NCBI RefSeq assembly: GCF_000341735.1
Contig: NZ_KB455575.1
Span: forward strand, 1,631,072-1,695,071
DNA: 64,000 bases
Reading direction: 5' to 3'
Origin: Methylotuvimicrobium buryatense 5G
GTDB lineage: Bacteria > Pseudomonadota > Gammaproteobacteria > Methylococcales > Methylomonadaceae
Under the pieces are notes generated by a model. That model worked only from the letters and a program-made list of their open reading frames with translations, was not told where the DNA came from and did no database searches. A program made the translations under genes and the position numbers. Of this stretch, positions 40,852-64,000 are shown piece after piece (the stretch's first letter is position 1; every line of letters begins with the position of its first letter).

Positions 40852-41865
40852 ATGACTATCAATCTATCCGTAGAACAAGTCTTTGCCTGGGCTGCTTTGC
40901 TAACCGAGCAGCCCGATTATCAGACGCTAACACACCAATTTCTGGACATTCTGCTTGAAATACCTGGGGTAAAAAAAGCCGCGGCTTATGAGATTTACAA
41001 CCGGAGCCGAAAGAAAACAGGCGAAGCCGTCGCACCCTGCGAACAATTGGTGAGACGCTTCCCATTGGATTTTACTCGTGACGAAAGCAACGATCATAAC
41101 GACTTAATCAACATCCTGGACACCGAATCACGCGTCATTCCGAAAATGTCCGATGCCAACGGGTGTTTTCGCCAAGTCTATCTCTCGCTCAAAGAGACGA
41201 AAGGCCCCGATCGCGCGATTGCCTTAGACGGCCTTTTCGACCAACCAGCGATAGATTTATTCCGCCAACTCCTTTCGATATTTAAAAACCAAGTTATATT
41301 GCACGACAGCAAAGAACGCGACGTACTGACCAAATTACCTAACCGTCAATCGTTCGATACTCGTCTTTTGCAAGTTTGCGAACATTATTTGAAACACCCG
41401 GTCACCGACACAAGCCATCAAAAAAGCTCCTGGATTGCTTTGCTCGACATCGATCATTTCAAGCGAGTCAACGATGATTTCGGCCATCTATACGGCGACG
41501 AAGTGCTATTGATTTTCAGCCAACTGATGGAAAAATGCTTTCGCTATAACGATTTTTTATTTCGCTTCGGCGGCGAAGAATTCGTCGTCATTCTCAACCT
41601 AACCGATATGGCAGGTGCCGAACATACGTTTAACCGATTTCGCGAAACGGTCGCCAACCATAACTTTCCGACGGTAGGACGCATTACAGTCAGCATCGGC
41701 ATTACGCATATCGACAGCATGTGTATGCCGACAACGCTACTCGATCGCGCCGACAAAGCACTGTATTACGCTAAGGAAAACGGAAGAAATAGAGCCGTGA
41801 TCTACGAAAACACCGATACGCTCATCAAAAATGCCGACACAAACGACGATATTGAGCTATTTTAA
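40852..41865 (+). CDS. GGDEF-domain diguanylate cyclase
   Basis: The 337-aa cytosolic protein has an N-terminal sensory region of about 155 residues, GAF-like in pattern but not firmly assigned. A GGDEF domain follows, with DVLTKLPNRQSFD, LDIDHFKRVNDDFGHLYGDEVL and the active site RFGGEEF. It should make cyclic di-GMP; no RxxD inhibitory site precedes the active site. ATG at 40852 follows a possible TTG at 40849. The C-terminal DDIELF resembles the ends of CheD and a chemoreceptor in the adjacent cluster, which links it to that system. Confidence 0.9.
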   Translation: MTINLSVEQVFAWAALLTEQPDYQTLTHQFLDILLEIPGVKKAAAYEIYNRSRKKTGEAVAPCEQLVRRFPLDFTRDESNDHNDLINILDTESRVIPKMSDANGCFRQVYLSLKETKGPDRAIALDGLFDQPAIDLFRQLLSIFKNQVILHDSKERDVLTKLPNRQSFDTRLLQVCEHYLKHPVTDTSHQKSSWIALLDIDHFKRVNDDFGHLYGDEVLLIFSQLMEKCFRYNDFLFRFGGEEFVVILNLTDMAGAEHTFNRFRETVANHNFPTVGRITVSIGITHIDSMCMPTTLLDRADKALYYAKENGRNRAVIYENTDTLIKNADTNDDIELF

Positions 41866-41890
41866 ACTCAACGCCTTATCGATCTCATTG

Positions 41891-42380: not shown

Positions 42381-42743
42381 ATGGCGAGTATTCTTGCAGT
42401 CGACGATTCCGCATCGATGAGACAAATGGTCTCGTTTACATTAAAAGGGGCCGGCTACGACGTTGTCGAAGCCGTAGATGGCGTAGATGCGTTAAATAAA
42501 GCAAAAAGCAAAAAATTCGACTGTGTCGTGACCGATGTCAACATGCCGAATAAAGACGGCATTGCCTTGATCAAAGACTTAAGAGCCTTGCCCGATTACA
42601 AATTCGTGCCTATGCTTATGTTAACGACAGAATCGGGCACCGACAAAAAACAACAAGGCAAGGAAGCGGGAGCGACCGGCTGGATCGTCAAACCATTCAA
42701 CCCGGATCAATTACTGAAAACGATCCAAAAAGTACTTGGTTAA
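42381..42743 (+). CDS. cheY: Chemotaxis response regulator CheY
   Basis: This single-domain receiver has 120 aa. The acidic pocket is VDDS at about 6-9, the phospho-acceptor Asp is in CVVTDVNMPNKDG, and T (LTTE) and K (IVKPFNP) complete the site. It is phosphorylated by CheA. The ribosome site TAGGAG precedes the ATG. It is the first che gene of the cluster. Similarity to the CheY group with MASILAVDDSASMRQMV suggests a motor or other output partner outside the window. Confidence 0.95.
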   Translation: MASILAVDDSASMRQMVSFTLKGAGYDVVEAVDGVDALNKAKSKKFDCVVTDVNMPNKDGIALIKDLRALPDYKFVPMLMLTTESGTDKKQQGKEAGATGWIVKPFNPDQLLKTIQKVLG

Positions 42744-42907: not shown

Positions 42908-44950
42908 ATGTCTATTGATATGGCGCAATTCCACCAGATTTTCTTCGAAGAAAGCTTCGAAGGACTTGATATCATGGAATCCGGCCTATTAAACCTAGAC
43001 ATGGGCGATGTCGATGCCGAAACCATCAATACGATTTTCAGAGCCGCGCATTCGATCAAGGGCGGGAGTGGAACATTCGGGTTTTCCGCAGTAGCCGACT
43101 TCACGCATGCAATGGAAACACTGCTCGATGAAATGCGCGACGGCCGCCGAAAAGTCACTCAGCCGGCCGTCAATGTTTTGCTAGGATCGGTCGATTGCCT
43201 CCGCGAAATGCTAACTGCAATTCAAGACGAAAAAATCTTAGATGAAGCTAAAGTCACGGAGCATAAAAAAGCGCTCGACACCGAATTAAACGGTGGCGAC
43301 AATACCGCATTGCCCTCTGTACAACCAACGCAACCTATCGCATTTGAAAACGAAAACGCAGGATGGCGTATCGCCTTTAGCCCCCATACCGATTTGCTTA
43401 AAACCGGCAACGACCCGGTCAGAATGTTTCGTGAATTGGCCGAACTGGGGCAAATCGATATTACCGTAGACCTACAGGGCGTGCCCGGACTTTACGAACT
43501 CGACCCCGAGGAATGCCATCTTTCCTGGCAAATAACCGTGCATGGCGATATCCCGCGCTCGGAAGTCGACGATATTTTCGATTGGGTCGAGGAACATTGC
43601 GACCTTGCCGTGCAAGACATCAAACAAACGACACAGGCTTCCTCGCCGGTATTCGACGAACCCCCTCAAACCGCTGCAATTGAAACAACGCCTCCTTCTT
43701 CGGCAACCAATCCTCCCATTGTCAGCGAGTCTGGTCAAAGCGAAAAAATAAACGCCGATAAAACCCCAAGCGCCGGCAAAAGCTCCGCCTCGATCCGTGT
43801 CGATACCGCCAAAATCGATACACTGATTAACATGGTCGGCGAATTGGTCATTACCCAATCGATGCTGAGCTTAATCGGCGAGCATTTCGACCTAAATAAA
43901 CTGGATCAACTCAAAAACGGTCTCGCACAACTGGAACGGCATACGCGCGAACTGCAAGAAAGCGTCATGAATATCAGAATGCTGCCCATCAGTTTCGTAT
44001 TCAGCCGCTTTCCTCGACTGGTTCATGATTTGAGCTCGAAACTGGGCAAAAAAATTGAACTACAACTCATCGGCGAACATACCGAAGTCGATAAAACAGT
44101 CGTCGAACTCATTAGCGACCCCCTGGTACATTTAGTTCGAAACAGCCTCGACCACGGTATCGAAACACCGGATGAACGCATTGCGGCAGGAAAACAAGAA
44201 ACCGGCACCGTCACACTCGAAGCTTATCACCGGGGAGGTAATATCGTCATCGAAGTCAGTGACGACGGACGCGGATTGGACAAAGACAAGTTGCGGGCCA
44301 AAGCGCTGGAAAAAGGACTGATTCAGGACGATGCCGTATTGAGCGACAAACAGACCTTCGAACTCATTTTCATGCCCGGGTTTTCGACCGCCGAACAACT
44401 AACCGACGTATCCGGGCGCGGTGTAGGCATGGATGTCGTCAAACGGAACATTCAATCGCTTGGCGGCAATATCGATATCGTTTCGCAGTTGGGCACAGGC
44501 TCTACCATGGCGATCTATTTGCCGTTGACGCTGGCGATCCTGGACGGCCAATCAGTTGCGGTCGGCGATGAAACCTATATCATACCGCTCGGCTCCATTA
44601 TCGAATCGATTAATGTCACCGAACGTATGATCAATCGCGTGGCCGGAAAAGGCGAAACCTTCCGGCTGCGCCAGGAATATTTGCCTATTATCCGCATGCA
44701 TGAAATTTTTTCGGTCCCGAATGCGAAAGCGACCAAATTAACCGAAGGCTTACTGGTGGTCGTCGAAGGCCAAGGCATCCGCTGCGGCCTGTTCGTCGAC
44801 GACCTTTTAACGCAACAACAAGTCGTCGTTAAGTCGCTCGAAGCCAATTACCGACATGTCGAAGGCATATCGGGCGCAACCATTCTTGGCGACGGCTCGG
44901 TTGCCTTGATCCTGGATATTCCAGGACTCGTCCGTTTATCGAACCATTGA
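42908..44950 (+). CDS. cheA: Chemotaxis histidine kinase CheA
   Basis: The 680-aa kinase has the Hpt domain with phospho-His48 (AAHSIKGGSGTFGF), a ferredoxin-like domain at about 150-235 in the place of P2, a proline-rich linker, the dimerisation P3 (KIDTLINMVGELVITQSML) and the ATP-binding P4 (VRNSLDHGIETPDER, VSDDGRGLDKDKL, GRGVGMDVVKRNI). A C-terminal CheW-like P5 follows (MAIYLPLTLAILDGQSVAVG). It receives input from the receptors through CheW and phosphorylates CheY and CheB. It begins 165 bp after cheY. Confidence 0.96.
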   Translation: MSIDMAQFHQIFFEESFEGLDIMESGLLNLDMGDVDAETINTIFRAAHSIKGGSGTFGFSAVADFTHAMETLLDEMRDGRRKVTQPAVNVLLGSVDCLREMLTAIQDEKILDEAKVTEHKKALDTELNGGDNTALPSVQPTQPIAFENENAGWRIAFSPHTDLLKTGNDPVRMFRELAELGQIDITVDLQGVPGLYELDPEECHLSWQITVHGDIPRSEVDDIFDWVEEHCDLAVQDIKQTTQASSPVFDEPPQTAAIETTPPSSATNPPIVSESGQSEKINADKTPSAGKSSASIRVDTAKIDTLINMVGELVITQSMLSLIGEHFDLNKLDQLKNGLAQLERHTRELQESVMNIRMLPISFVFSRFPRLVHDLSSKLGKKIELQLIGEHTEVDKTVVELISDPLVHLVRNSLDHGIETPDERIAAGKQETGTVTLEAYHRGGNIVIEVSDDGRGLDKDKLRAKALEKGLIQDDAVLSDKQTFELIFMPGFSTAEQLTDVSGRGVGMDVVKRNIQSLGGNIDIVSQLGTGSTMAIYLPLTLAILDGQSVAVGDETYIIPLGSIIESINVTERMINRVAGKGETFRLRQEYLPIIRMHEIFSVPNAKATKLTEGLLVVVEGQGIRCGLFVDDLLTQQQVVVKSLEANYRHVEGISGATILGDGSVALILDIPGLVRLSNH

Positions 44951-44954
44951 CCGA

Positions 44955-45476
44955 ATGAACAACAAAATGGCAAACACAGACGATCAGTCCCAACAACAGC
45001 CGGACAGCAAAAAGTCGTCCGATATGGCGCAATATTTGAGTTTTACACTCGGCGACGAGGAATATGGCGTCGATATTTTGCGGGTACAAGAAATCCGCAG
45101 TTGGGAACCGGTATCCAGAATTCCGAATGTCCCCGCTTATGAAAAAGGCGTCGTCAATCTGCGCGGCGCAATCGTGCCGATCATCGATTTGCGCGAACGT
45201 TTCAACCTTGGCCACTCCCACTACACGCCGTTGACCGTCGTCGTCGTCCTGCAAGCCTTCATCGGCAGTAAACCTCGGGTGATGGGCGTGGTCGTCGATT
45301 CGGTTTCGAACGTAATCGACATTGAAAAAACCAGAATTCAAAGCGCGCCCGATTTCGGCGCCAAAGTCAGCACCGAATTCATCAACGGCCTCGCATCGTT
45401 CAACGAACGCATGGTGATGCTGCTGGATGTCAACAAATTACTTAAATTAGAAGGCGTGGATAACGATGAAAATTAA
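44955..45476 (+). CDS. cheW: Chemotaxis coupling protein CheW (first)
   Basis: This 173-aa protein links receptors to CheA. It has the CheW fold with YLSFTLGDEEYGVDILRVQEIRSWEPVSRIPN and VNLRGAIVPIIDLRERF. The N-terminal extension of about 25 residues is polar (DDQSQQQPDSKKSSD). It starts 4 bp after the cheA stop. A second, different cheW lies at 48016, one for each side of the first receptor gene. Confidence 0.95.
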   Translation: MNNKMANTDDQSQQQPDSKKSSDMAQYLSFTLGDEEYGVDILRVQEIRSWEPVSRIPNVPAYEKGVVNLRGAIVPIIDLRERFNLGHSHYTPLTVVVVLQAFIGSKPRVMGVVVDSVSNVIDIEKTRIQSAPDFGAKVSTEFINGLASFNERMVMLLDVNKLLKLEGVDNDEN

Positions 45477-45518: not shown

Positions 45519-47882
45519 ATGAAAATGAATATGCCTGTTACCGATCGTGAAATCATGATGAAGCAGGGCACGATCCTGGTCACCAAAACCGACTTGAAAG
45601 GCTGCATCATCTATGCGAACGACGCCTTCGTCGAAATCAGCGGTTTCACCCGTGATGAACTCGTCGGCTCGAACCATAACATTGTTCGTCATCCCGACAT
45701 GCCCCCCGCTGCATTCAAAGATTTATGGGAAACGATCAAAGCAGGGCGCCCGTGGATCGGTTACATCAAAAACCGCACCAAAACTGGCGATTACTATTGG
45801 GTCGAAGCCAACGTCACGCCGTATTTCGAAAATAAACGGATTGCCGGCTATTTGTCGGTTCGCCAAGCTCCTTCTCGCGATCAAATCGATCATGCCGAAG
45901 AGCTTTATCAAAAAATCGCCGCGGATCGAGCCAGCATCAGACCGACCGGAATTGCGGCTAAACTAACTGCGGTCAAACAAGGCGCATTGTCTAAAAAAGC
46001 CGGCCTCGCCTTTTTGCTGCTGTTATTGCCGTCACTTCATGCCGGCTATCAAGCCATGATCGACGGCAACATTATCGCCCTTGCCGGCTATTCGCTATCG
46101 TCATTGTTGGGCTTGATATTAGGCATTCATACCTTCCGCTTGATGCTCGGCTCAATCGAGCAGTCGATCGTATTTTGCCATAATGCCGCGAGCGGTTTCT
46201 TCCGTAATAAGGTCGACATCGACCGCTTGGATCAAATCGGCGACCTCAATCGAGCACTCCAATCGATGCAAGTCAAACTGAATGCCGATTTGTCCGCGAC
46301 ACTCGAAGCCGGAGCCGTCACCGAGAGACTCAAGCAAGCGCTGGATCAAGTGACCGGCAATGTCATGATGGCCGATGCGGACTGCAACATCATCTATATG
46401 AATCATGCCGCGAAACGCCTATTCAAACGTAATGAAAACCACTTCCGACGAGATTTGCCCGACTTCAATGCCGACACATTGATCGGTTCGAATATCGATA
46501 GTTTTCATAAAAACCCGGCCCACCAACGCGGTTTGCTGGCAAAATTAACGCAAACCTACAAAGCCGAATTGATGATTGGCGGCCGCACAATGGTGGTCAT
46601 TGCAACACCGGTATTCGCCGGCGAAACACGGCTCGGCACGGTCGTCGAATGGATCGACCGCAGCGACGAAGTCAGCATTCAGCATGAAATCGCCGAAATC
46701 GTGCAACAGGTCAAGTCCGGCGAACTCGGCGGACGTGTGAATCTGGACGGCAAGGAAGGCTTCTTCGAAACCTTGAGCGAGGGTATCAATGAATTAACCG
46801 ACGTCATCGAACGCGCCTTCAGCGATGTCGCACGCGTCATGCAAAGCATGTCGACCGGCGATTTGACGCAACGCATCACGAACGATTATGAAGGCGTCTA
46901 TGCTCAATGTAAAAACGATATCAACGAAACGCTTGATAAGCTCAGCGAAATATTCGAACAAATCAGAAGCTCGGCCGACTTCATTAGCAATACCTCTCAA
47001 CAAATCGCGAGCGGCAACAACAACCTCTCGCAACGGGTAGAAACCCAGGCGGCCAGTCTCGAAGAAACCGCATCGAGCATGGAACAACTGACCGGCACCG
47101 TCAAAAACAATGCCGACAATGCGCAACAAGCCAATCTGGTTTCCAGTAATGCCCGGCAACTCGCGGAAAAAGGCGGGACCGTAGTCGCTTCAGCCGTCTC
47201 GGCAATGGCTGAAATCAACGACAGCAGCAATAAAATCGCCGAAATCATCGGCGTCATCGATGAAATCGCTTTTCAAACCAACCTGCTTGCCTTGAACGCT
47301 TCGGTCGAGGCTGCCAGGGCCGGCGAACAAGGACGCGGCTTTTCGGTCGTTGCCACCGAAGTGCGCAATCTAGCGCAAAGAAGTGCCGTCGCGGCAAAAG
47401 AAAGTAAAGAGTTGATTCAAAATAGCGTACAAAAAGTAAGAACCGGCACCGACTTTGTCAATGAAACCGGCTCCGCATTGCAAGAGATCGTGCAAGGCGT
47501 CAAAAAAGTCGGCGATATCGTTTCGGAAATCGCCGCCGCCAGCATGGAGCAATCTCAAGGCATCCTGCAAGTCAATCAAGCGGTTTCCGAAATGGACGAG
47601 ATCACACAACAAAATGCCGCACTAGCCGAACAGGCATCTGCCGCCAGCATGTCGATGACCGATCAAGCCACTCAGATGGCGAATTTATTGAGTTTTTTCA
47701 AGCTGGGGCAAAACATGGACAGATCTAAACAGACTTTCGAAACAATAACGGATAAACCGAAACCGGCAGTTGGAAAAACAACGGCATCAGCGCCGTCGAA
47801 ACAACATTCAACACAAGCAAAACCAACGGCGCCCACATTCAATACACCGATACAAGACGACGATGAATGGGAAGAATTTTAA
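45519..47882 (+). CDS. PAS-containing methyl-accepting chemotaxis protein
   Basis: The 787-aa receptor has an Aer-like PAS domain at about 20-125 ([22 protein letters not shown]), a membrane hairpin at about 160-207 with almost no periplasmic loop, a second PAS at about 265-380, a HAMP-like segment and the signalling domain with hairpin tip [21 protein letters not shown]. It probably senses an internal redox or energy cue; FAD binding is possible in the first PAS but not proven. The flexible tail ends EWEEF, which fits the CheR/CheB-tethering pentapeptide pattern (aromatic at positions 2 and 5). Confidence 0.93.
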
Positions 47883-48015: not shown

Positions 48016-48513
48016 ATGACGAACAACCAAACCATCGCGAAAAACACCCCCGCCTCCGAACAGTTTTTGACTTTTGAACTGGCCGGCGAAATGTATGGCG
48101 TTGAAATACTAAAAGTCCAAGAAATCAGGGGCTGGGAGCCGATACGCAAAATCCCTAAAACGCCTGGTTATATCAAAGGCGCGCTGAATCTTCGCGGCGC
48201 CATCGTCCCGATTCTCGACTTGCGCGAACGCTTCGATATCGCCACCGTAGACTATTCGCCGACGACCGTCGTCATCGTTATCAATGTCGCAACGGCCTCA
48301 GGACAAATGGTCATGGGGGTCGTCGCCGATGCTGTGTCCGACGTATTGGATATTCGTCATGACGACATCAAAAAAGCGCCCGACCTAGGCACTAACATCG
48401 ATACTCGTTACATGCGCGGGATGTATGTCGCCAAGCAAGGCATGATCATGCTGCTCGACGCCGATAAACTCCTGAATCCGGACGAACTCGATCAAATCGG
48501 TCATTTGTTATGA
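48016..48513 (+). CDS. cheW: Chemotaxis coupling protein CheW (second)
   Basis: The 165-aa CheW-fold protein has FLTFELAGEMYGVEILKVQEIRGWEPIRKIPKTPGYIKG and LNLRGAIVPILDLRERF. It is similar to the first CheW and may pair with a different receptor in the same array. The stop overlaps the next gene's ATG (ATGA at 48510-48513), which implies coupling with the STAS protein. Confidence 0.94.
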   Translation: MTNNQTIAKNTPASEQFLTFELAGEMYGVEILKVQEIRGWEPIRKIPKTPGYIKGALNLRGAIVPILDLRERFDIATVDYSPTTVVIVINVATASGQMVMGVVADAVSDVLDIRHDDIKKAPDLGTNIDTRYMRGMYVAKQGMIMLLDADKLLNPDELDQIGHLL

Positions 48514-48893
48514 GCGACATGTTTAAAAACGCCCCCCACATGGAAAATCCAGCCATGAACCATGACACAACCACGACCGATGCGGGGGATTTAACAATGG
48601 CCGAAGGTCCGATAATGCTGGACGCCGTGTTAAATATCCGTCACATCAACGAATTACACGAGTCTCTACTCAAGGCCTTCGAATCCCGTGACACACTGGA
48701 AGTCGATGCATCGGCGGTAACGGCCGTCGATACTGCAACCTTACAATTACTCACCGTGTTAAAACAGGAGGCTGTCAAATCGGGAAAACACGTCGTTTTC
48801 GACTTTCCATCGGATAAATTCATCGATAGCGCTCGCTTACTCGGCTTGGCCGAACTGCTCGAAATCGACCACCCCGCATCCGGTTTATTCTAA
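48510..48893 (+). CDS. STAS-domain protein
   Basis: This 127-aa protein has a variable N-terminal tail of about 35 residues and a STAS domain (MLDAVLNIRHINELHESLL, VDASAVTAVDTATLQLL, LLGLAELLEI). The phospho-serine position of anti-anti-sigma factors is replaced by Thr in VDTATLQ, as in MlaB-like STAS proteins. It is coupled to the second cheW upstream and precedes cheR by 2 bp. Its job in chemotaxis clusters is not known to me; it may modulate a switch partner. Confidence 0.88.
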   Translation: MSDMFKNAPHMENPAMNHDTTTTDAGDLTMAEGPIMLDAVLNIRHINELHESLLKAFESRDTLEVDASAVTAVDTATLQLLTVLKQEAVKSGKHVVFDFPSDKFIDSARLLGLAELLEIDHPASGLF

Positions 48894-48895: not shown

Positions 48896-49759
48896 ATGAG
48901 CGTGCCGCCGCGACAAGAGCCGTCCTCACTACAACAATTTCGAGAGTTCGAATACACTCGTGCGGACTTCGATCGCTTAAGAGCTTTGTCGAACAAGCAT
49001 TCCGGCATTTTAGTTCCGGACGACAAGTTCGACATGTTTTATTCACGCCTTACCAAGCGCATCAGAGCGCTGAGACTAAACAGTTTCAAGGAGTATTGCC
49101 AACTTCTGGAGGACGGTTCCACGCAGGAATTCACGAACTTCATCAACTCAATCACGACCAATCTGACCGCATTTTTCAGAGAAAACCATCATTTCGACTA
49201 TTTAAAAAAAACCGTCATCCCGGAATTGATCAAAAAAAATCAAACTTCTCGGCAAATTAGAGCCTGGTCGGCAGGTTGTTCGACCGGCGAGGAAGCGTAT
49301 TCGATAGCAATGACGCTGCTGGAAAATTTGCCTGCCGGCTGGACCGCCAAGATTCTGGCAACAGACATCGACACCCAAGTATTGGATATCGCGGCCAACG
49401 GCGTATATGAATTGAACCGGATCAACGGTATACCCGAGGAACATCTGAAACGTTGGTTCAAAAAAGGCACCGGCTCGCAAATCAACAAAGTCAAAGTCAA
49501 ACCGGAACTGCGGCAAATGATTACATTCAAGCAACTAAATCTGATGCAGGATTGGCCGATTAAAATCCCTTTCGACTTTATTTTTTGCCGTAACGTTTTT
49601 ATTTATTTCGACCGGGAAACCAAAAAAACATTGGCCGCGAAATATTCGAACTTATTAACTATCGACTCCTGTCTGTTCATCGGTCATTCGGAATCGTTGC
49701 AACAAGTTGCCGATCAATTCGAATTAATCGGTAACACAATTTATCGCAAGGTCGGATGA
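48896..49759 (+). CDS. cheR: Chemoreceptor methyltransferase CheR
   Basis: CheR transfers methyl groups from S-adenosylmethionine to receptor glutamates. The 287-aa protein has the N-terminal helical domain (TRADFDRLRALSNKHSGI) and the SAM site AWSAGCSTGEEAYSIAM, then ATDIDTQVLDIA and FDFIFCRNVFIYFD. It overlaps cheD by 4 nt (ATGA at 49756). It likely docks on the EWEEF tail of the PAS receptor. Confidence 0.95.
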   Translation: MSVPPRQEPSSLQQFREFEYTRADFDRLRALSNKHSGILVPDDKFDMFYSRLTKRIRALRLNSFKEYCQLLEDGSTQEFTNFINSITTNLTAFFRENHHFDYLKKTVIPELIKKNQTSRQIRAWSAGCSTGEEAYSIAMTLLENLPAGWTAKILATDIDTQVLDIAANGVYELNRINGIPEEHLKRWFKKGTGSQINKVKVKPELRQMITFKQLNLMQDWPIKIPFDFIFCRNVFIYFDRETKKTLAAKYSNLLTIDSCLFIGHSESLQQVADQFELIGNTIYRKVG

Positions 49760-50394: not shown

Positions 50395-50404
50395 GAAACA
50401 AGGC

Positions 50405-52711: not shown

Positions 52712-53020
52712 ATGGCATTAGAAATCATTCATCATCCGGAAAAAAAAGAATTGACCGTCCGCATTTCAGGACGCTTCGATTTCAGCGTTCATCAAGACTT
52801 TAGAAAAGCAACCGAATGGGATCGAGATACCGTCAAAACCATCAATGTGGATTTAAAGAATACCGAATACATGGATAGCTCCGCATTAGGCATGCTATTG
52901 ATATTGAGAGATAAGATGAATAACGCCCCATCAGCTATTCGCTTACTGAATGCCAAACCGGAAGTCAAAAAAATTTTGGAAATTGCCAATTTTCAAAAAT
53001 TGTTTACATTGGTTCCGTGA
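52712..53020 (+). CDS. STAS-domain anti-sigma factor antagonist-like protein
   Basis: The 102-aa single STAS domain has the serine of SpoIIAA/RsbV-type proteins in the pattern NTEYMDSSALGMLLILRDK, so a cognate kinase can phosphorylate it. The candidate kinase is the RsbW-like ATPase encoded at 53386, with a MITE between them. It would form a partner-switch module within the chemosensory island. Confidence 0.92.
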   Translation: MALEIIHHPEKKELTVRISGRFDFSVHQDFRKATEWDRDTVKTINVDLKNTEYMDSSALGMLLILRDKMNNAPSAIRLLNAKPEVKKILEIANFQKLFTLVP

Positions 53021-53226: not shown

Positions 53227-53385
53227 CCTAAATATTCCCGCTAACCTTTTTGTGCGAACGACAGTTCTATACAAACACATAACAAGTTTTCGGATTAACT
53301 GCTTATTCTTCATGATCTTCATGGTGAAATGCTTTGTCTAGGTTTGTAGCCGTTGCAACGCCTCAATAAATTGGACGATTCTTAA

Positions 53386-55088: not shown

Positions 55089-55817
55089 ATGAAGATGACC
55101 CCAATATACGAGGGAGCGCACCGTTGGATCATGTTCGGCCGGGATACCAATAAACCTGCCAACATTATCGATACCAATCAATATATTGTGCGAACAGCGA
55201 ATCGTTGTTTATTAATGGACCCCGGCGGTATCGAACTGTTCGCACCGATGCTGGCAGCCGTCTTGCATCATGCGCCGGTCGAGGAAATCACCGATCTATT
55301 CGCATCGCATCAAGACCCCGACATCATTTCCTCGCTGGGTTTGTGGGACCAAGCCCTGCCGAAAGCCAAACTACATGCCTCATCGCTTTGGGAAGGTTTC
55401 ATCCGCCACTTCGGTTGCGAATCAATCGATTATGTCGGCATTCCCGATAACGGCGGCAAGATCAAGCTGGATTCTACCGAGCTGAAAATAATCCCGGCAC
55501 ACTACCTGCATTCATCGGCCAATTTTCATATTTACGATGCGGAAGCGAAAATCCTGATGTCCGGCGATGTCGGTGCGGCACTCGAAGCCTCCGGCGCGCC
55601 GATTTATGTCGATAATTTCGATAGCCACATCGATCACATGCGCTTCTTTCATCAACGCTGGATGCCATCGAATCAGGCTAAGAGAGACTGGATCGAGCGC
55701 GTTCGCAAACTCGACATCGACATGATGGCGCCGCAACACGGGCGCATTTTTAAAGGCGATAACGTTAAACGCTTTTTGGATTGGTTCGAAGGCCTGGAAG
55801 TCGGCATAGCCGTTTAA
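55089..55817 (+). CDS. Flavodiiron-like metallo-beta-lactamase protein, candidate ODP oxygen sensor
   Basis: This 242-aa MBL-fold protein has the flavodiiron metal layout: HQDPD at the first site, H in PAHYLHSSANF, D in LMSGDVG and H in APQHGRIF, but no flavodoxin domain. The closest functional model known to me is ODP, a diiron protein recruited as an iron and oxygen sensor in Treponema chemotaxis. A gene position among receptors and before two hybrid kinases fits such a role. In an aerobic methane-oxidiser it would report on oxygen. Enzymatic NO or O2 reduction, the classical flavodiiron role, is the alternative. Confidence 0.82.
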   Translation: MKMTPIYEGAHRWIMFGRDTNKPANIIDTNQYIVRTANRCLLMDPGGIELFAPMLAAVLHHAPVEEITDLFASHQDPDIISSLGLWDQALPKAKLHASSLWEGFIRHFGCESIDYVGIPDNGGKIKLDSTELKIIPAHYLHSSANFHIYDAEAKILMSGDVGAALEASGAPIYVDNFDSHIDHMRFFHQRWMPSNQAKRDWIERVRKLDIDMMAPQHGRIFKGDNVKRFLDWFEGLEVGIAV

Positions 55818-55949: not shown

Positions 55950-58900
55950 ATGCAATCCCAATTTTCCGACGCCCTGAAAGAATTGCAAACTGAATTCATC
56001 GACCGACTGCCGGAGCGAATCGGCGCTATTCGTTCGCAATTTCAGAAGATAGATGCTTCAGCATGGCGCCCCGAAGAAGCGGCAACCTTGCATCGTCTGG
56101 TTCATGGATTAACCGGCTCGGCCGGTACATTCGGCATGCAGGCGCTCTCGGATGCCGCGCGCGACATGGAAATACGCTTGTCGGATTTACTTCGATCCGG
56201 CAAAACCCCTACCGATATGGAATGGCAAGCCGTCGGCCTAGCGTTCGATAGTTTAAGCCGTCTCGCCAGCCTAGAGTTGCCAACCGACGCCCCCAGCCTT
56301 CCTCCGCCGCCGACACCGAAACGCGCCAACCATTCGCCTTTGATCGACATAATTGAAGACGATGTCGATCAAGCGCTACATTTGCAAAGCGTTTTACAGA
56401 AAAACGGGTTTCGCACACGCGTATTCTCCGAACCTACGCAATTTCAAACCCTATTCACAGAGCCGAACGCGGAACCGCCGGCCGCCGTGATCATGGACAT
56501 GATATTCCCCGATGGGAATCTTGCAGGCGCGGAAGCCGTTAGCCATATAAAAAATCTTGGCAAAGACTCCGAAACTCCGGTCATCATCGTCTCGGTACGA
56601 GACGATATCGCTGGACGACTCGCCGCGTTTCGCGCCGGCGCCTCCCGCTATCTTGTAAAACCGGTCAATTCCGAACGCATCGTCGATATTTTGGATGCAC
56701 TGACCGGACGCCACCCGACCAAGCCTTATCGGGTGTTATTGATCGATGACGATCCGCTCATAGTCAATGCGCACGCGGCTGAATTGCAAGCGGCCGGAAT
56801 GGAAGTCAAAACCTCGACCCAACCCCTCGACATATTGAATATACTGGACAATTTTTCGCCCGATGTCGCGGTGCTCGATGTTTATATGCCCGAAGCCAGC
56901 GGTCCGGAATTGGCCGCTATCATACGCGAGCGCGACGAGTATCTGCATTTGCCGATTCTATTTCTATCCGGCGAAACCGATATGACCCAACAACTGTTAG
57001 CGCTCAGTCTAGGCGGCGACGATTTTTTAGTGAAACCCGTACAGCCCCGGCATTTGATCGCCGCCGTTTCGGCAAGAGCGCGCAGGGCTCGACAAAACAG
57101 CGCATTACGTCTACGGCTCGAAACCACGCTCTACGAACGCGAGCGAGAACATCTGGCGATCAATCATCACGCAATCATCAGCATCGCCGACCGCTCCGGC
57201 AATATCACCTACATCAACGACAAATTTTGCGAAATCAGCGGCTACCGGCGCGAAGAGTTGATCGGACAAAACCATCGCATTGTCAAATCGGGCGAACACT
57301 CGCCCGAATTTTACCACGACTTATGGGAAACCATCGCCGGCGGCAGGGTCTGGCAAGGCGAAATTTGCAATCGGCGCAAGGACGGCAGTCTATATTGGGT
57401 CGAGTCCACGATTACTCCCTTTCTCGGCAGTAACGGAAAACCTTATCAATACGTCTCGATCCGCACCGACATCAGCCATGTCAAAAAGTCTGTACAACAA
57501 TTAAGATTACTGGAGCGTGCGGTCGAAGCCAGCACCAGCGGTATCGTAATCGCCGATGCCAACCAACACGATATGCCTCTCATTTTCACTAATAAGGCGT
57601 TCGAGGGTATTACAGGCTACTCGCGCGAGGAAATATTGGGCAAAAACTGTCGATTTCTCAACAGCAATGACCGCCATCAACCCGGACTGGATCATGTGCG
57701 ATCGGCTTTATCAAAGGGCGAAAAAGTCGAAACCGTGTTACGCAATTACCGCAAAGACGGATCGATGTTTTGGAACGAGTTGCGGATTGCGCCGGTCCAT
57801 GACGAACAAGGCAATTTGACGCATTTCATCGGTATTATCAAGGATGTTAGCGAACGCGTGCGCAGCAACGAAGCGCTGAAAAAAGGCGAACAAAATCTAC
57901 GCGCGACGCTCGAATCCACTCTGGACGGCATTTTAGCCGTCGACGATAGCGGCTCGATTCTTTTCGCCAACCGGCAATTTATCGAACTGTGGCGCATACC
58001 GGAAGAACTCGCCTTACCCGGCCAACCGGACCAACACCTACTGGATACTGCTGAGCATCAACTGGCCGACCCGCTCGAGTTTCGCAAGGTTGTACAAAAC
58101 ATTTATCGCTCCGGCCAAGATTCGCAAGACCTGCTTGAATTTGCGGACGGCAGAATAGTCGAACGCCATTCAAAACCGCTCGTTTCGGAAGGAAAAATCG
58201 GCGGCCGGGTATGGAGCTTTCACGACATCACCGAAATCAAACGCGCCGAACGCTCGGTGGAATATCACAAAGAAAGACTGCGCCGCGGACAAATTTTCGC
58301 GAACATCGGCACCTGGGAATGGAATATCCAATCCGGCGATCTTTTTTGGTCCGAACGCATCGCGCCGCTGTTCGGCTACCCGGACGGGAATTTAGAAACG
58401 TCCTATGAAAACTTCCTTAACGCGATACACCCCGAAGACCGGCAAGCTGTTGTCAAGGCTGTAAGCGCCTGCCTTGAATACGATGAGCCTTACAACATCG
58501 AACACCGCGTCATTTGGCCGGACGGCACCGAGCGCTGGCTGCTCGAGCGAGGAGCCGTGGTGCGCGACGAGGGCAAACCCACGCAAATGCTTGGCGTGGT
58601 ACAAGATATCGACGACCGCAAACGCGCGGAACTGGCGCTAGCCGAGCGCGAAAAATATCTGCGCATCTTTCAGCATATTGTCGATTCGGTCGTCGACGGC
58701 GTCATCACAATCGGCGCCGACGGTATTATCCACTCATTCAATCCTGCGGCATGCGCTATCTTCGGTTATCGAGAATCGGATATCGTCGGCCGCAAAGTCA
58801 ATGAACTGATGCCGGAGCCTCATCGATCCGAAATCGACAACTATCTCCAGCGTTATTGCGCGACCGGAACCGGAAAAATCATCAATCAGCAACTTGAAGT

Positions 58901-60206
58901 AGCCGGACTCAAAGCGGATGGGAACATTTTTCCACTCGAAATTGCCTTCAGCCAAATCAAACTATCCGATGACCTCCTCTTCGTCGGCCTCGCGCGAGAC
59001 ATTACCGAGCGCAAACGAGCCGAACAGGCATTAATTACCGCCCGAGTCATCGCAGAACGCGCCAACCAGACTAAATCGGACTTTCTCTCAAACATGAGCC
59101 ACGAGTTGCGCACGCCGATGAACGCGATTCTCGGTTTCGGTCAACTGCTGCAATACGACGAAACCTTGAGCGATACACAAAAAGAGGATGTAGGGGAAAT
59201 TCTCAAGGCCGGCCGGCATCTACTCGATTTAATCAACGAAATATTGGATTTAGCCAAGATCGAATCCGGTCGGATTTCGTTATCCATAGAGCCCGTAAGG
59301 GTCGCACCGATTATCGAGGAATGCCTGAGCCTGGTATCCACACAAGCGGATAAACGCCGAATAAGCCTCCGCAACAATGCGCAAGAAGACTTTACTGTCC
59401 AAGCCGACCAAACACGGCTCAAACAAACGCTACTCAATTTGATCTCTAATGCGATCAAATATAATCGCGAAGGCGGCTTAGTGGCCGTAGAGGCCATGCC
59501 TAAAGACAGCGAATACTTGTCAATACAAATAACCGATACCGGACGCGGTATCCCGAAGGAACGTTTACATGAACTCTTTCAACCGTTCAACCGTCTCGAC
59601 GCTGAAAACAGCGCTATCGAAGGCACCGGCATCGGACTGACCATCTCTCGCCGCATCGTTGAAATGATGGGCGGCGCGATCGAAGTCGAAAGCGAAGTCG
59701 GCGTGGGCAGCCGTTTCATGATTACGCTTCCGGCGGCATCGAACCCGACCTTATCGGAACCGCCTAAAACATCTGCAGCCATCGAAAAACCGGCATTGCA
59801 GAGTCGCTCGAGGCAACAGCTCGTGCTCTATATCGAAGACAATCCGTCAAATATCCGGCTCGTCTCTCAAATACTCGAAAGACAACGGCACATTCGTCTC
59901 ATCACGGCCCACACACCGGAACTGGGCATCGATTTAGCCCGAGCGCACCGCCCCGACCTCATTCTACTCGACATCAACATGCCGAATTTGAACGGTTTTC
60001 AGGTATTATCCATTTTTCAAAACGATCCTATCGTTAAGTCCGCACCGGTCATCGCAATCACCGCCAATGCGATGCCGCGCGATATCGAACAGGGCAAAGC
60101 GGCCGGCTTCGCGGACTATTTAACCAAGCCGTTGGACATCACGCAATTCAACGCCGTTTTGGAAGATTTGCTTAACCGCATTCAAAAAGATCCGGATTCA
60201 TCATGA
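55950..60206 (+). CDS. Giant hybrid histidine kinase with Hpt, two REC, LOV/PAS array and C-terminal REC
   Basis: The 1418-aa cytosolic protein has an N-terminal Hpt with H52 (VHGLTGSAGTFG), REC at about 130-245 (D183), REC at 250-375 (D310), then five PAS units at about 395-1020. A HisKA domain has H1051 (MSHELRTPMNAIL), then HATPase_c (NLISNAIKYN, DTGRGIPKE, GTGIGLTIS), and a final REC carries D1341. The second PAS is LOV-like: Cys567 in GKNCRFLNS, NYRKDGSMFWNEL and TGYSREEILGKN. All modules for an internal phosphorelay are on one chain. The stop overlaps the next kinase gene by ATGA. Confidence 0.92.
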   Translation: MQSQFSDALKELQTEFIDRLPERIGAIRSQFQKIDASAWRPEEAATLHRLVHGLTGSAGTFGMQALSDAARDMEIRLSDLLRSGKTPTDMEWQAVGLAFDSLSRLASLELPTDAPSLPPPPTPKRANHSPLIDIIEDDVDQALHLQSVLQKNGFRTRVFSEPTQFQTLFTEPNAEPPAAVIMDMIFPDGNLAGAEAVSHIKNLGKDSETPVIIVSVRDDIAGRLAAFRAGASRYLVKPVNSERIVDILDALTGRHPTKPYRVLLIDDDPLIVNAHAAELQAAGMEVKTSTQPLDILNILDNFSPDVAVLDVYMPEASGPELAAIIRERDEYLHLPILFLSGETDMTQQLLALSLGGDDFLVKPVQPRHLIAAVSARARRARQNSALRLRLETTLYEREREHLAINHHAIISIADRSGNITYINDKFCEISGYRREELIGQNHRIVKSGEHSPEFYHDLWETIAGGRVWQGEICNRRKDGSLYWVESTITPFLGSNGKPYQYVSIRTDISHVKKSVQQLRLLERAVEASTSGIVIADANQHDMPLIFTNKAFEGITGYSREEILGKNCRFLNSNDRHQPGLDHVRSALSKGEKVETVLRNYRKDGSMFWNELRIAPVHDEQGNLTHFIGIIKDVSERVRSNEALKKGEQNLRATLESTLDGILAVDDSGSILFANRQFIELWRIPEELALPGQPDQHLLDTAEHQLADPLEFRKVVQNIYRSGQDSQDLLEFADGRIVERHSKPLVSEGKIGGRVWSFHDITEIKRAERSVEYHKERLRRGQIFANIGTWEWNIQSGDLFWSERIAPLFGYPDGNLETSYENFLNAIHPEDRQAVVKAVSACLEYDEPYNIEHRVIWPDGTERWLLERGAVVRDEGKPTQMLGVVQDIDDRKRAELALAEREKYLRIFQHIVDSVVDGVITIGADGIIHSFNPAACAIFGYRESDIVGRKVNELMPEPHRSEIDNYLQRYCATGTGKIINQQLEVAGLKADGNIFPLEIAFSQIKLSDDLLFVGLARDITERKRAEQALITARVIAERANQTKSDFLSNMSHELRTPMNAILGFGQLLQYDETLSDTQKEDVGEILKAGRHLLDLINEILDLAKIESGRISLSIEPVRVAPIIEECLSLVSTQADKRRISLRNNAQEDFTVQADQTRLKQTLLNLISNAIKYNREGGLVAVEAMPKDSEYLSIQITDTGRGIPKERLHELFQPFNRLDAENSAIEGTGIGLTISRRIVEMMGGAIEVESEVGVGSRFMITLPAASNPTLSEPPKTSAAIEKPALQSRSRQQLVLYIEDNPSNIRLVSQILERQRHIRLITAHTPELGIDLARAHRPDLILLDINMPNLNGFQVLSIFQNDPIVKSAPVIAITANAMPRDIEQGKAAGFADYLTKPLDITQFNAVLEDLLNRIQKDPDSS

Positions 60207-63200
60207 ACGCGTGGTGCGAAACCTATCTCGGCATGATCTTTCAAATCTACGCTTTAGCTTTTTTTTGCTTGGGCGCGGTAGTTTCCGTATTACCGAAACC
60301 AAACAACGCCTTGTTTGTTTTCCGGCATTTAAATTGGTTGGCGGGGTTCGGTTTTTTGCACGGCTTTCTGGAGCTAATCGAAGGAGAGCGCTTACACAAC
60401 GATGCGAGCTGGCTAACAATCGCAAGCGCTCTACTCTTAACCGTCTCATTCTGCGCGCTCTTGGAATTCGGACGGCGCAGTTTGAATTCGATATCCGCTG
60501 CAATACGTCTACCGGCATTACCGCTCTACGGCATGTTAACGGCCCTCAGCATAGCTATCGCCGTCAATTCAAACGACCCTTTCGCGGGAATAGAGTTTAG
60601 TCTTCGCTATTTTGCCGGTGCTCCGGGAGCGTATTTGGCAAGTTACGTGCTATTGGCAAGCCGCCAAGATCCCGCCTATGGCGGCAAAGGCGAAATAAAT
60701 ATTCGTTGGTTATTTGCCGTAGCCGCGGCATTCGCCGTCTACGGTTTCTTGACTTTATTCGTATCAACCGGTTTGTCTTTGTTGCCATGGCTACCGACCG
60801 CGCAACACTTTGCCGAAATCACAGGACTGCCGGTGCAATTGCCGAAAGCGCTATGCGCGATCTTGATCGCACTTTCGTTTGCGTGGTTGATACACACGAC
60901 CGGTCGATTGGCCAACGATACGCTATCGCGGGTGCTCGATACGCTCAACGGCTTCGTCTACCGCTGCCGCAACGACCGGGCTTGGACTCTGGATTTCATG
61001 ACCGGCGGCGTCGAACAGCTTACCGGTTATTCTACAAAGGACTTTCTAGCGCCGAGAAGCCTGAATTATAACGAACTGATTCACGCGGACGACACCGAAC
61101 GCGTTTGGAACGAAGTTCAGGCCGCTATTAGCAAGCGCCGCGAATTTGAAATCGATTATCGAATTTTGACTCGAAACGGAGAGATTCGTTGGGTCTGCGA
61201 ATACGGAAGAGGTGTCTTCGCCAGAAACGGTAAGCTACTTTTTATTGAAGGTCGAATCACCGACAATACCGCTCGACGGCAAGCCGAGGCCGGCTTACAT
61301 ATCAAGAATGCAGCAGTCGACGCTTCCATCACCCCGATCGCGATCGCCGGACCGGACGCCAAGCTTTCCTATGTCAATCCGGCTTTCGCCGAGCTATGGC
61401 ATTTACCGGATACTGGATCGGCCATCGGCCGCTCGGCACTCGAATTCTGGAAATACCCCGACGAGGCGGAAGCGGTCATCGATAATCTGTCCGTAAAGGG
61501 CCGATGGCAAGGCGACTTAATCGCCAAGCGCTTCGACGGTTCGACGGTTGAAGTACAATTATCGGCCTGCATGGTAAACGACCAAGATGGCGCGCCTTTA
61601 TGCATGATGGTCTCGTTTCTCGACATCAGCGGCCGCAAACAGGTGGAAAAAGAACTATTGCAGGAACGCGATTTCACTAACAGCTTGATCAACACCGCAC
61701 CGGTCATCGTACTACTCCTCGACCCGCAAGGATTCATTCTGCATGTCAACCGATATTTCGAAGAGTTAACCGGTTATCGGTTGCACGAAATCATTAGTAA
61801 AGAATGGTTCGCATCATTCTTACCGAAACGCGACAGAGATCGAATTCGTCAAATATTCCGCAGTGCCGTTCACGAAGAACCGGCACAAGGCAACATCAAC
61901 CCCATCGTTATTCGAAACGGCGAAGAACGGGACATCGAATGGCATTCCGAGATTATGCGCGATGCCAATGGAACGACTTCGGGGCTACTCTGTACCGGCC
62001 AAGACGTAACCGAACGCCGGGCGATACAACAACGCGCAGAGATGTTGCAGATGTTGGCGGACGCCTCGGTCCAAGGCATCGGCTGGGCGAATCTTACCGG
62101 TAAAGTCAATTATTTCAATCCTGCCCTGAGGCGCCTGTTGGCAGTTCCGGAAAACGCCGAGGTCGGCGATTATACATTTTTCGATTTCTATCAAGAAAAT
62201 CAAATAATGGAATTGAAGTCCCGGATTTTACCGGAAGTATTGCAAAACGAGTTCTGGACAGGCGAATTCGACATTACCGCCGTCGACGGACGCGTGATAT
62301 CGACTATCCATAGCGTTTTCTTAATCAAAGATAGCGATGGTAACCCCATCGCTTTCGCCAATGTAATCACCGATCTCACCGAACGGAAACGCACCGAAAT
62401 AGAACTGAAACGGCTCAACCTGGAGCTCGAACAACGCGTGCTCGAACGCACCGCGGAACTGGAAAGACAAAGCCGCCGCAATGCAATGATCGTCGACGCC
62501 GCGATCGACGGCTTTTTCACCGCCGATCTGCAAGGCAGAATCCGCGATTGCAACGACGCTTATTGCGCCATGCTCGATTACACCCGAGACGAACTGCTCG
62601 GTTTGCACATAGCCGACATCGAAGCATTGGAAACGCCGAAACAACTCGAGGCTCATATCGCTAAAGTGATAGAGCAAGGCAAGGACCGATTCGACACCCG
62701 CCACCGCCGCATAGACGGGACTTTGCTGGATGTGGAAGTTAATGTCACATTGAACGAGCTAGGCGGCGAGCGCCTGTTTTTCGCCTTTGTCAGAGACATT
62801 TCCGAACGTAAACGTTCCGAGGCCATGCTAATCGCCGCCCGCGAAGAAGCCGAGCGCGCCAATGCCGCCAAATCGGAATTTCTCTCGCGCATGAGTCATG
62901 AATTGCGCACGCCGCTCAACGCCATTCTCGGTTTCGGACAATTATTGGAAGCCGACGCCGAACAACCGTTGACCGTCATGCAGGCCGACAACCTTCAAGA
63001 AATACTCCAGGCCGGCAGCCATCTTTTGACGCTGATCAATGAAGTCCTAGACCTGAGCCGCATCGAAAGCGGTCGTATCGAGCTCAACCTCGATATCATC
63101 GCGATCGGCCCGCTTCTCCAATCCTGCGTCAAACAGATCAAACCGCTGGCCGAACAACGCGGCATCGCAATCTGTTTTGAATCAATCGACAATTGTTCGG

Positions 63201-64000
63201 TTGTGGCCGATTCGACTCGACTCAAGCAAGTGTTACTGAATCTACTGTCTAATGCGGTTAAATACAACCGCGACGGCGGGCGGATAGCCATCGATTGCAT
63301 CTCCGCCGGCCCCGATAGACTCCGAATCGGTGTCAAAGACACCGGCTACGGCATATCCGAGAAATTGCTGCCCCGCCTGTTCAAGCCTTTCGAGCGACTC
63401 GAATCGGCCTATCAGGGAATCGAAGGTACCGGAATCGGTCTGGCGCTGGCGAAAAAACTGGTCGAATCCATGCATGGCGAGATCGGGGTAGACAGCACCC
63501 CCGGCGAAGGCAGTGTTTTCTGGTTCGAATTGCCGTCGGCCGTTTTGCTCGATACCGAAGCCCCGACCGTTCCAGCTAAACTGCCGGCAATAAACGCCTC
63601 GAATAACATCCCTAGCCAGTGCAAATTGCTCTATGTCGAAGACAATCCGGCCAATTTGAGACTGGTACAAAAAATTCTCGCCGCTCGCCAAAACATGGAA
63701 TTGTTTACTGCCGTCAATGCCATGGACGGACTGGCAATCGTCGCACACGAACATCCGAATTTGATCCTGCTCGATATCAATCTGCCGGATATAGACGGAT
63801 TCGAAATGTTGCGCCACTTAAAGAATAACCCCGCCACCCGAGACATTCCGGTGATCGCGGTCACCGCCAATGCCATGCGCAGCGATATCGAACGCGGCAT
63901 GGCCGCAGGCTTTGCCGATTATCTGACGAAACCCTTGGATGTGCTAGAATTTCTCAAATGCATAGACCGTTTTAAACACAACGCCGACGGAAAACCTCAT
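60203..64000 (+). CDS. Membrane-bound PAS hybrid histidine kinase (runs off the window)
   Basis: The frame starts at 60203 inside the stop of the previous kinase gene (ATGA) and stays open to the right edge: 1266 codons, no stop. It starts MNAWCETYLGMIFQIYALAFF and has about seven hydrophobic helices in the first 235 residues, a MASE-like sensor. Five PAS-type domains follow at about 250-880, with a coiled coil near 730-760 (LEQRVLERTAELERQ). HisKA is at H899 (RMSHELRTPLNAIL), then HATPase_c (NLLSNAVKYN, DTGYGISEK, GTGIGLALA) and a REC domain with D1191 (ILLDINLPD). Coupling to the previous gene implies the two kinases are made together. Confidence 0.9.
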   Translation, partial: MNAWCETYLGMIFQIYALAFFCLGAVVSVLPKPNNALFVFRHLNWLAGFGFLHGFLELIEGERLHNDASWLTIASALLLTVSFCALLEFGRRSLNSISAAIRLPALPLYGMLTALSIAIAVNSNDPFAGIEFSLRYFAGAPGAYLASYVLLASRQDPAYGGKGEINIRWLFAVAAAFAVYGFLTLFVSTGLSLLPWLPTAQHFAEITGLPVQLPKALCAILIALSFAWLIHTTGRLANDTLSRVLDTLNGFVYRCRNDRAWTLDFMTGGVEQLTGYSTKDFLAPRSLNYNELIHADDTERVWNEVQAAISKRREFEIDYRILTRNGEIRWVCEYGRGVFARNGKLLFIEGRITDNTARRQAEAGLHIKNAAVDASITPIAIAGPDAKLSYVNPAFAELWHLPDTGSAIGRSALEFWKYPDEAEAVIDNLSVKGRWQGDLIAKRFDGSTVEVQLSACMVNDQDGAPLCMMVSFLDISGRKQVEKELLQERDFTNSLINTAPVIVLLLDPQGFILHVNRYFEELTGYRLHEIISKEWFASFLPKRDRDRIRQIFRSAVHEEPAQGNINPIVIRNGEERDIEWHSEIMRDANGTTSGLLCTGQDVTERRAIQQRAEMLQMLADASVQGIGWANLTGKVNYFNPALRRLLAVPENAEVGDYTFFDFYQENQIMELKSRILPEVLQNEFWTGEFDITAVDGRVISTIHSVFLIKDSDGNPIAFANVITDLTERKRTEIELKRLNLELEQRVLERTAELERQSRRNAMIVDAAIDGFFTADLQGRIRDCNDAYCAMLDYTRDELLGLHIADIEALETPKQLEAHIAKVIEQGKDRFDTRHRRIDGTLLDVEVNVTLNELGGERLFFAFVRDISERKRSEAMLIAAREEAERANAAKSEFLSRMSHELRTPLNAILGFGQLLEADAEQPLTVMQADNLQEILQAGSHLLTLINEVLDLSRIESGRIELNLDIIAIGPLLQSCVKQIKPLAEQRGIAICFESIDNCSVVADSTRLKQVLLNLLSNAVKYNRDGGRIAIDCISAGPDRLRIGVKDTGYGISEKLLPRLFKPFERLESAYQGIEGTGIGLALAKKLVESMHGEIGVDSTPGEGSVFWFELPSAVLLDTEAPTVPAKLPAINASNNIPSQCKLLYVEDNPANLRLVQKILAARQNMELFTAVNAMDGLAIVAHEHPNLILLDINLPDIDGFEMLRHLKNNPATRDIPVIAVTANAMRSDIERGMAAGFADYLTKPLDVLEFLKCIDRFKHNADGKPH

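Follow-up and report, generated by a model that had tools for sequence, protein, structure and literature searches.

We analyzed a stretch of 64,000 nucleotides of the Methylotuvimicrobium buryatense 5G genome (C1:1631072–1695071 of 5.07 Mb; this whole stretch is called the window, and positions are counted from its first base), which contains a chemosensory (che) gene cluster. With moderate confidence, we propose that the region associates a stage 1 F7 chemosensory system with a two-protein plug-in sensor of oxygen or iron. One partner would be a 206-amino-acid receptor-like protein entering the CheA/CheW layer, for which we coin the name TIP; the other is ODP, a homologue of the oxygen-binding diiron protein. 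The proposal is built on the gene content, the two-tip sequence of TIP, its predicted four-helix chain, its strict pairing with ODP and the co-occurrence of the pair with F7 genes. We infer the binding of metal and oxygen by ODP, the contact between TIP and ODP, the insertion of TIP into the array and the direction of its effect. The two genes are located as follows.

54443..55063, + strand: TIP, one chain carrying two degenerate receptor tips (sequence, profiles, AlphaFold2)
55089..55817, + strand: ODP, oxygen-binding diiron protein homologue (PF19583, E 6e-72; PDB 6qrq, E 2e-63, and 6qnm, E 7e-57)

TIP and its pairing with ODP

TIP was 97% identical to the orthologue of Methylomicrobium sp. 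wino1 (L044), its nearest named relative. Across 37 sequences, two receptor-like tips, AAANAKAIAFRAGEKA.GF and VIAANSRIEASQAGE, were nearly invariant, and the stretch between them (about 85–135) was largely variable. No transmembrane stretch was seen in the protein. Profile comparisons with hhalign (pairwise E-values, nine receptor sequences and 51 TIP sequences) aligned the first half of TIP with receptor hairpins at a probability of 98% (E 8e-14), the second half at 95% (E 8e-9), and the two halves with each other at 82% (E 1e-6); the five reversed controls did not exceed 1.4%. The PDB sequence matches of TIP were likewise receptor hairpins, the best being 4jpb (E 2e-6), which we take to be a CheA-CheW-receptor complex. 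AlphaFold2 predicted four helices at residues 2–50, 53–104, 111–166 and 168–204 (pLDDT 84.2, pTM 0.73). The tip of a receptor dimer is made of two hairpins coming from two chains. As TIP appears to hold two hairpins in one chain, it may be a single-chain imitation of the receptor-dimer tip. The initial annotation had described a soluble receptor-tip mimic; the short receptor-like protein is indeed there, with two tips instead of one. Five divergent TIPs belonging to two subfamilies (23–27% identity) kept the two-tip layout, as judged by eye, and adjoin divergent ODPs inside other che clusters.

The ODP gene product, annotated at the outset as a flavodiiron ODP-like protein, was confirmed as such, with a PF19583 score of 242 bits for a cut-off of 27.2. 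Its closest PDB structure was 6qrq, with which the residues HQDPD, PAH..HS, SGD and APQHG align. These motifs presumably hold the ligands, and ODP probably carries a diiron site able to bind iron or oxygen. The genome possesses a second ODP (L357:5138–8090, C1:4743137 onward), which overlaps a downstream GGDEF gene.

The distribution of the pair was investigated in a family sample of 151 genomes and a class sample of 369 genomes, the counts not being corrected for the kinship of the genomes. TIP was present in 76 of the 151 family genomes, and an ODP orthologue (>400 bits) was found in the same 76. In 75 of the 77 TIP places, ODP came directly downstream in the same orientation, separated from TIP by a median of 39 bp (from 23 to 461). 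The two remaining places (G144 and G142) were within about 160 bp of a contig end in the direction of ODP, and their ODP was on another contig. Similarly, ODP followed TIP in 78 of 80 named loci, the other two (L053, L103) stopping at a contig edge just past TIP. In the class sample, a TIP profile (E 1e-10, at most eight candidates scored per genome) detected 20 of the 369 genomes, the same 20 that had an ODP of at least 358 bits. There were 33 ODP rows of at least 247 bits, including that of the window; 29 of the 32 others were examined (G183:C104, G377:C16 and G015:C10 being left out), and every one of the 29 had a TIP-like open reading frame (ORF) adjoining ODP, with matches no weaker than E 1e-5. 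Below 195 bits, 16 of 61 rows were examined, and no TIP-like ORF was seen within the 3.7–7 kb around them; one of these 16 had a GGDEF neighbour and two were in ORFs of more than 600 amino acids. TIP is thus associated with a single branch of the family of ODPs. In L168 and L169, an extra receptor-like ORF of 420–424 amino acids was located directly downstream of ODP, and in G027 and G052 (L124, L127) another ODP and a cyclase-like match adjoined the TIP-ODP pair. In the congener G078 (L216), an F7 cluster was present but TIP was not found, and the sole ODP match was partial and distant; as the contig stops next to the HATPase gene, a loss and an assembly gap are indistinguishable.

Previous work on Treponema denticola identified ODP (TDE2498) as an oxygen sensor for chemotaxis and showed that its deletion alters the ordering of CheA in the arrays (PMC7666581). 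TDE2496, genetically coupled to ODP, is a homologue of methyl-accepting chemotaxis proteins (MCPs) devoid of transmembrane and sensing parts, and it modulates CheA (PMC7666581). The arrangement of the window is alike in that ODP is coupled to an MCP-like protein without a transmembrane or sensing part, and an MCP-like gene without a sensing part adjoined ODP in this manner in 75 of the 77 places. As far as the descriptions can be compared, TIP differs from TDE2496 in that one chain bears both of its degenerate tips. No gammaproteobacterial pair of the ODP-TIP type was found among the papers listed by the literature searches, of which passages were read, most subscription papers being outside their reach. 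The TIP-ODP pair is a novel variation on the ODP-receptor theme, with strong genomic support and a putative mechanism.

The F7 cluster and the place of TIP-ODP

Genes were called in the window from the list of ORFs and a Pfam search. All of those from cheY to the two hybrid kinases that follow ODP are on the + strand, and a GGDEF protein gene lies upstream of cheY. The complete che set with two receptors on one strand, preceded by a cyclic-di-GMP synthase, had been announced by the initial annotation and was confirmed.

40849..41865, + strand: GGDEF diguanylate cyclase, C-terminus DIELF (Pfam GGDEF, E 1e-36; DIELF kept in four congeners, L213–L216)
42381..42743, + strand: F7 CheY (Pfam Response_reg, E 4e-27)
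42908..44950, + strand: F7 CheA with Hpt, dimerisation, HATPase and CheW domains (Pfam)
44955..45476, + strand: CheW (Pfam CheW, E 2e-37)
45519..47882, + strand: Aer2-like PAS chemoreceptor, C-terminus EWEEF (Pfam MCPsignal, E 5e-56, and PAS)
48016..48513, + strand: second CheW (Pfam CheW, E 7e-34)
48510..48893, + strand: first STAS protein (Pfam STAS_2, E 2e-13)
48896..49759, + strand: CheR (Pfam CheR, E 3e-64)
49756..50394, + strand: CheD, C-terminus EIELF (Pfam CheD, E 4e-26)
50360..51445, + strand: CheB (Pfam CheB_methylest, E 5e-61)
51456..52661, + strand: McpA-like receptor, QFEDMTRQ near the C-terminus, end DIELF (Pfam MCPsignal, E 3e-31)
52712..53020, + strand: STAS anti-sigma-factor antagonist, STAS2 (Pfam STAS, E 6e-13; NCBIfam ant_ant_sig just over cut-off)
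53386..54345, + strand: degenerate receiver and HATPase (RsbW-like), SpoIIE domain absent (HATPase matches slightly under Pfam cut-offs)

The NCBIfam Aer2 model covered residues 268–787 of the Aer2-like receptor (E 5e-154), under the cut-off of the model. On the basis of sequence, the che core, the McpA-like receptor and the STAS partner switch correspond to the published stage 1 F7 system with two departures. This system was described by Ortega et al. in 2020, M. alcaliphilum being among the species imaged (PMC7184735), and the window resembles it in the clustering of cheY, cheA, two cheW, aer2-like, cheR, cheD, cheB, mcpA-like and STAS genes. In stage 1 F7, a STAS antagonist precedes cheY (PMC7184735), whereas here the first STAS gene is located between the second cheW and cheR. 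In addition, the serine phosphatase that follows the last STAS gene in stage 1 F7 (PMC7184735) is replaced here by the ORF at 53386, without a SpoIIE domain. The TIP-ODP pair and a cyclase with the same C-terminal tag as CheD are additions with respect to the published system. The initial annotation had regarded its combination as not seen described; novelty was rejected for the association between che genes and a partner switch, since it is already published as stage 1 F7 (PMC7184735). A che part of this kind is nothing unusual in this group.

The ORF at 53386 consists of a weak receiver-like stretch followed by a HATPase domain. Its relative in L046, the one scanned, has a receiver-SpoIIE-HATPase organization in 567 amino acids, as compared to 320–324 amino acids for the counterparts in congeners, which indicates that the phosphatase domain is absent in the genus of the window. 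The gap at 53021–53385, which separates STAS2 from the HATPase gene, is similar to repeated stretches close to gaps in L134. In L044, L045 and L135, a 324-amino-acid HATPase ORF begins within about 25 bp of STAS2, so the gap was not the cause of the loss of SpoIIE. The STAS and HATPase proteins of the annotated RsbW-like pair are thus present, with the correction that a weak receiver-like stretch precedes the HATPase. In Shewanella oneidensis, RpoS is under the control of a CrsR/CrsA pair encoded at the che1 locus (PMC9855816). As in the window, a regulator and an anti-sigma-factor antagonist are found there next to a che cluster that includes Aer2 and McpA; compared to CrsR, the window protein retains just the degenerate receiver and the HATPase.

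The association of TIP with F7 genes was apparent in the family sample, in which F7 cheA was counted at 63% identity or more, partial matches included. Eighty-two of the 151 genomes had F7 cheA, 73 with TIP and nine without; three had TIP only and 66 had neither. Among the 18 genomes of other families with an ODP of at least 358 bits, 13 possessed an F7-type CheD (at least 225 bits). When only the genomes with handles up to G424 were considered, taken as a smaller sample, the proportion was 13 of 14 compared to 45 of 259 other genomes; four of the five ODP genomes without an F7-type CheD have handles above this smaller CheD sample.

Several observations weigh against the proposal. F7 cheA is found without TIP in nine genomes, and TIP without F7 cheA in three (in one of the three, G046, TIP is broken, and another, G133, is 63% complete). 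Only 46 of the 76 family genomes showed TIP-ODP linked to F7 cheA, on its strand and at 16 kb or less. The 24 stretches examined by blast around TIP-ODP pairs, a procedure which divergent che genes could escape, showed che genes in none of the 15 with a stronger ODP in other families. They were seen in six of the eight with a weaker ODP (L186, L187, L189–L192), L185 having a receptor only, and no che gene was seen in the stretch L193, from the family of the window. The co-occurrence counts ignore genome relatedness. As regards the protein, the PF00015 MCPsignal score of TIP was 20.8 bits, below the Pfam threshold of 34.6; no Pfam model exceeded its cut-off for TIP, and no NCBIfam model did so for TIP and two divergent TIPs. 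Foldseek with the TIP model retrieved just generic helical bundles in the PDB, although a chain-by-chain comparison is a poor test of dimer mimicry. The second tip was difficult to recognize in the most distant TIPs of the class, for instance L165 and L166.

A possible, though unlikely, alternative is that TIP-ODP senses oxygen on behalf of another array (F6 or a further che system of the cell) and lies beside F7 for historical reasons. Nine genomes have TIP on the F7 cheA contig at more than 16 kb, G032 only just beyond this distance and G027, G043, G061, G079, G084, G094, G106 and G134 far from it. The divergent TIPs in other che clusters, the lack of che genes around the stronger pair in the 15 stretches from other families, and the several che systems of the window genome, with 17 CheW domains, fit the same idea. 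It is opposed by the direct linkage of TIP-ODP after cheB in many loci and by co-occurrence, the pair being found together with F7 cheA within the family and together with an F7-type CheD outside it. Quite improbably, ODP might be a diiron enzyme, for example a scavenger of O2 or NO, and TIP its private helical partner or scaffold, with a receptor likeness that is a relic. ODP belongs to the metallo-beta-lactamase superfamily (Pfam) with a weak flavorubredoxin match (NCBIfam), TIP is under the MCP cut-off, and no methylation consensus was found in it, which is also the case of the McpA-like receptor. However, ODP matches structures named oxygen-binding diiron protein, and both tips of TIP are highly conserved around a variable middle.

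The initial annotation regarded the region as one oxygen, light and redox system including the two hybrid kinases, HK1 and HK2, which we consider very improbable. The spacing is short in the window, and the LOV motif of HK1 is kept in L044, L134 and L135. In addition, a gene similar to HK1 (L220:1899–5372 of G084, from another genus; 52% identity over the N-terminal half) adjoins cheY on the opposite strand. Nevertheless, a same-strand HK1 (identity of at least 40%) came after ODP only in L044 and L045 among the 80 named loci, both from congeners, and likewise in the congeners L134 and L135, some relative loci stopping within a few kb of ODP. The gap between ODP and HK1 was also variable, being larger in L134 and occupied in L135 by an inserted ORF of 338 amino acids, transposase-like by eye. 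HK1 and HK2 were left out of the system because their linkage to ODP was seen only within the genus among the loci examined, and the reading of the whole 23 kb as one system was rejected. Gene order in relatives therefore sustains part of the earlier view: TIP and ODP are adjacent and track F7 cheA, whereas the hybrid kinases follow in congeners only, as far as the loci were examined. The supposed linkage of the downstream genes to cheA holds for TIP-ODP in the 46 genomes mentioned above.

In the model that we favor, F7 with TIP-ODP as its plug-in sensor, ODP with its diiron site would sense oxygen or iron. A single TIP molecule, folded as two hairpins, would mimic a receptor-dimer tip, take its place within the CheA/CheW layer of the F7 array and relay the state of ODP there. 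Alternatively, TIP might disturb the F7 array once released by ODP. This model is supported by the finding that the T. denticola ODP works with a sensorless MCP homologue modulating CheA (PMC7666581). F7 is the ancestral system and forerunner of the Escherichia coli chemotaxis machine; its function is still undetermined according to its describers, with evidence for a role in the stress response (PMC7184735). A conserved oxygen-sensor pair tracking F7 genes is a direct candidate for the input of this system, and a one-chain mimic of the receptor dimer would be a simple handle on arrays.

A shared C-terminal tag

A side finding concerns the C-terminus of three proteins of the cluster. The DNA pattern coding for [DE][IV]E[LF]F followed by a stop (ELF tag) had three matches in the genome and one in the reversed control. 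All three genome matches corresponded to the C-termini of the cyclase, CheD and the McpA-like receptor of the window, with the form [DE][IV]ELF.

41848..41865, + strand: ELF tag codons and stop, cyclase (one of the three whole-genome pattern matches)
50377..50394, + strand: ELF tag codons and stop, CheD (one of the three)
52644..52661, + strand: ELF tag codons and stop, McpA-like receptor (one of the three)

The congeners G010, G037 and G060 had exactly three pattern matches each. The tails were seen in frame in congeners, and both the motif and the tail of the McpA-like receptor were kept in its orthologues. In the loci scanned, all 58 family orthologues of CheD whose 3' end was complete terminated in [IV]ELF. 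In the class, the locus was examined for 30 of the matched CheD rows, that of the window included, and the end was [IV]xLF in 27 of the 29 best-scoring orthologues besides the window's, the two others running past. The tag is also present on F7 CheDs from other families of Gammaproteobacteria. In the structure model of CheD, the last seven residues (206–212) had a pLDDT below 50; a near-invariant and disordered end is what would be expected of a docking tail. The cyclase, initially placed before the system, is tied to it by the shared tag more firmly than had been claimed.

In 61 family genomes, 88 matches were classified, excluding the nine of G010, G037 and G060. Sixty-four of them end ORFs of at least 60 amino acids: 23 CheDs, 20 members of a family named here FAM180, nine McpA-like receptors, seven cyclases like that of the window (six in other genera, 49–62% identity), two members of a group of 159–171 amino acids, one other receptor and two fitting no class. 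FAM180 is a family of 180-amino-acid proteins (L236:609–1148, L235, L244, L260 and others) tagged with [DE][IV]ELF and carrying QFYDRxxQ or a similar motif. It was present in 26 of the 61 genomes and absent from the four searched genomes of the genus of the window, and the one member scanned had no Pfam match. The motif Q[FH]xDxxxQ was found in 31 of 32 FAM180, McpA-like and related proteins. The CheZ of the genome has a similar FQDITGQ, the short FxDxxxQ being the only feature shared with the McpA-like and FAM180 proteins. The D and Q are catalytic residues of CheZ. Neither the McpA-like protein nor FAM180 matched CheZ (PF04344) in Pfam at E 0.1, and no CheZ match was obtained in a PDB sequence search of FAM180 and the McpA-like C-terminus.

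Eight distinct CheDs of other che types did not end with [IV]x[LM]F (two were in oddly long ORFs). In the second che cluster of the genome (L358), an McpA-like protein with QFQDRVTQ ends with DLTFF (8428–9639) and CheD ends with DVEFW (10570–11166), which may represent a second, cluster-specific version of the tag. Receptors are known to carry a pentapeptide x-[HFYW]-x2-[HFYW] that binds CheR or CheB (PMC7698151 and PMC7390727, motif from PMC7184735). The ELF tag shares with it the C-terminal location and an aromatic last residue, and differs by an I or V where an aromatic residue is needed and by its presence on CheD and the cyclase. The EWEEF end of the Aer2-like receptor fits the pentapeptide, and the tagged proteins do not. 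The McpA tail is conserved in stage 1 F7 as in the window, the second residue of the pentapeptide being a V in Pseudomonas aeruginosa (PMC7184735). In the accessible part of the same source, we found no mention of this tail on the CheD of stage 1 F7, nor of its sharing with CheD and the cyclase.

Other results argue against reading these ends as a tag. In the 61 genomes, the pattern had 97 matches and the reversed control 38. Twenty-four of the 88 classified matches look like background, with 21 in ORFs of less than 60 amino acids and three without a stop. The FAM180, SM159 and MCPx references were drawn from the matches themselves, so that these three classes match by construction. Related tails (DVEFW, DLTFF) exist outside F7, and the McpA tail of P. 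aeruginosa bound none of four CheRs, its role being called unclear (PMC7184735).

A common partner would bind the tag on the cyclase, CheD and the McpA-like receptor. A guess for this partner, by analogy with the CheZ tail DDLLSSLGF and with CheZ biology, is the F7 CheY. We consider doubtful the joint claim in which TIP is a single-chain receptor-dimer stand-in, inserted in chemosensory arrays, through which a separate sensor, here ODP, drives CheA, and the ELF tag is a docking code for F7 CheY. The tag carriers would then be CheD, the cyclase, and the McpA-like and FAM180 proteins, the latter two acting as receptor-borne or free CheZ-like phosphatases. If true, this would supply the phosphatase missing from the ancient F7 system, together with a cyclic-di-GMP output. 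The shared tail ties the unexplained McpA tail to CheD and the cyclase, and its partner can be searched for with a peptide.

Hybrid kinases and genes beyond the window

The remaining genes of the region are neighbours whose membership in the system is not supported.

55950..60206, + strand: HK1 hybrid kinase with Hpt, receivers, PAS repeats and LOV
60203..64000, + strand, running on to 64009: HK2 hybrid kinase

HK1 possesses the LOV cysteine motif GKNCRFLN, in agreement with its initial annotation as a LOV hybrid kinase; no motif of this type was found in HK2. In the PDB, the best match of the LOV domain of HK1 was 7r5n, a "Sensory box protein" (E 2e-38), and chains named "Blue-light photoreceptor" matched down to E 4e-28. 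Where the PDB protein has the Q of FIGVQ, HK1 has an I. Scans of the window for promoters (18 sites, shuffle mean 20.8) and terminators (27, mean 27.3) showed no excess over shuffles, and thus say nothing on transcription units. Past 64009 and up to C1:1704754 (L010:5070–14754), further signalling genes are present, labelled by eye as a receiver-HD-GYP-like protein, two kinases, a receiver and an Hpt-receiver-GGDEF-like protein.

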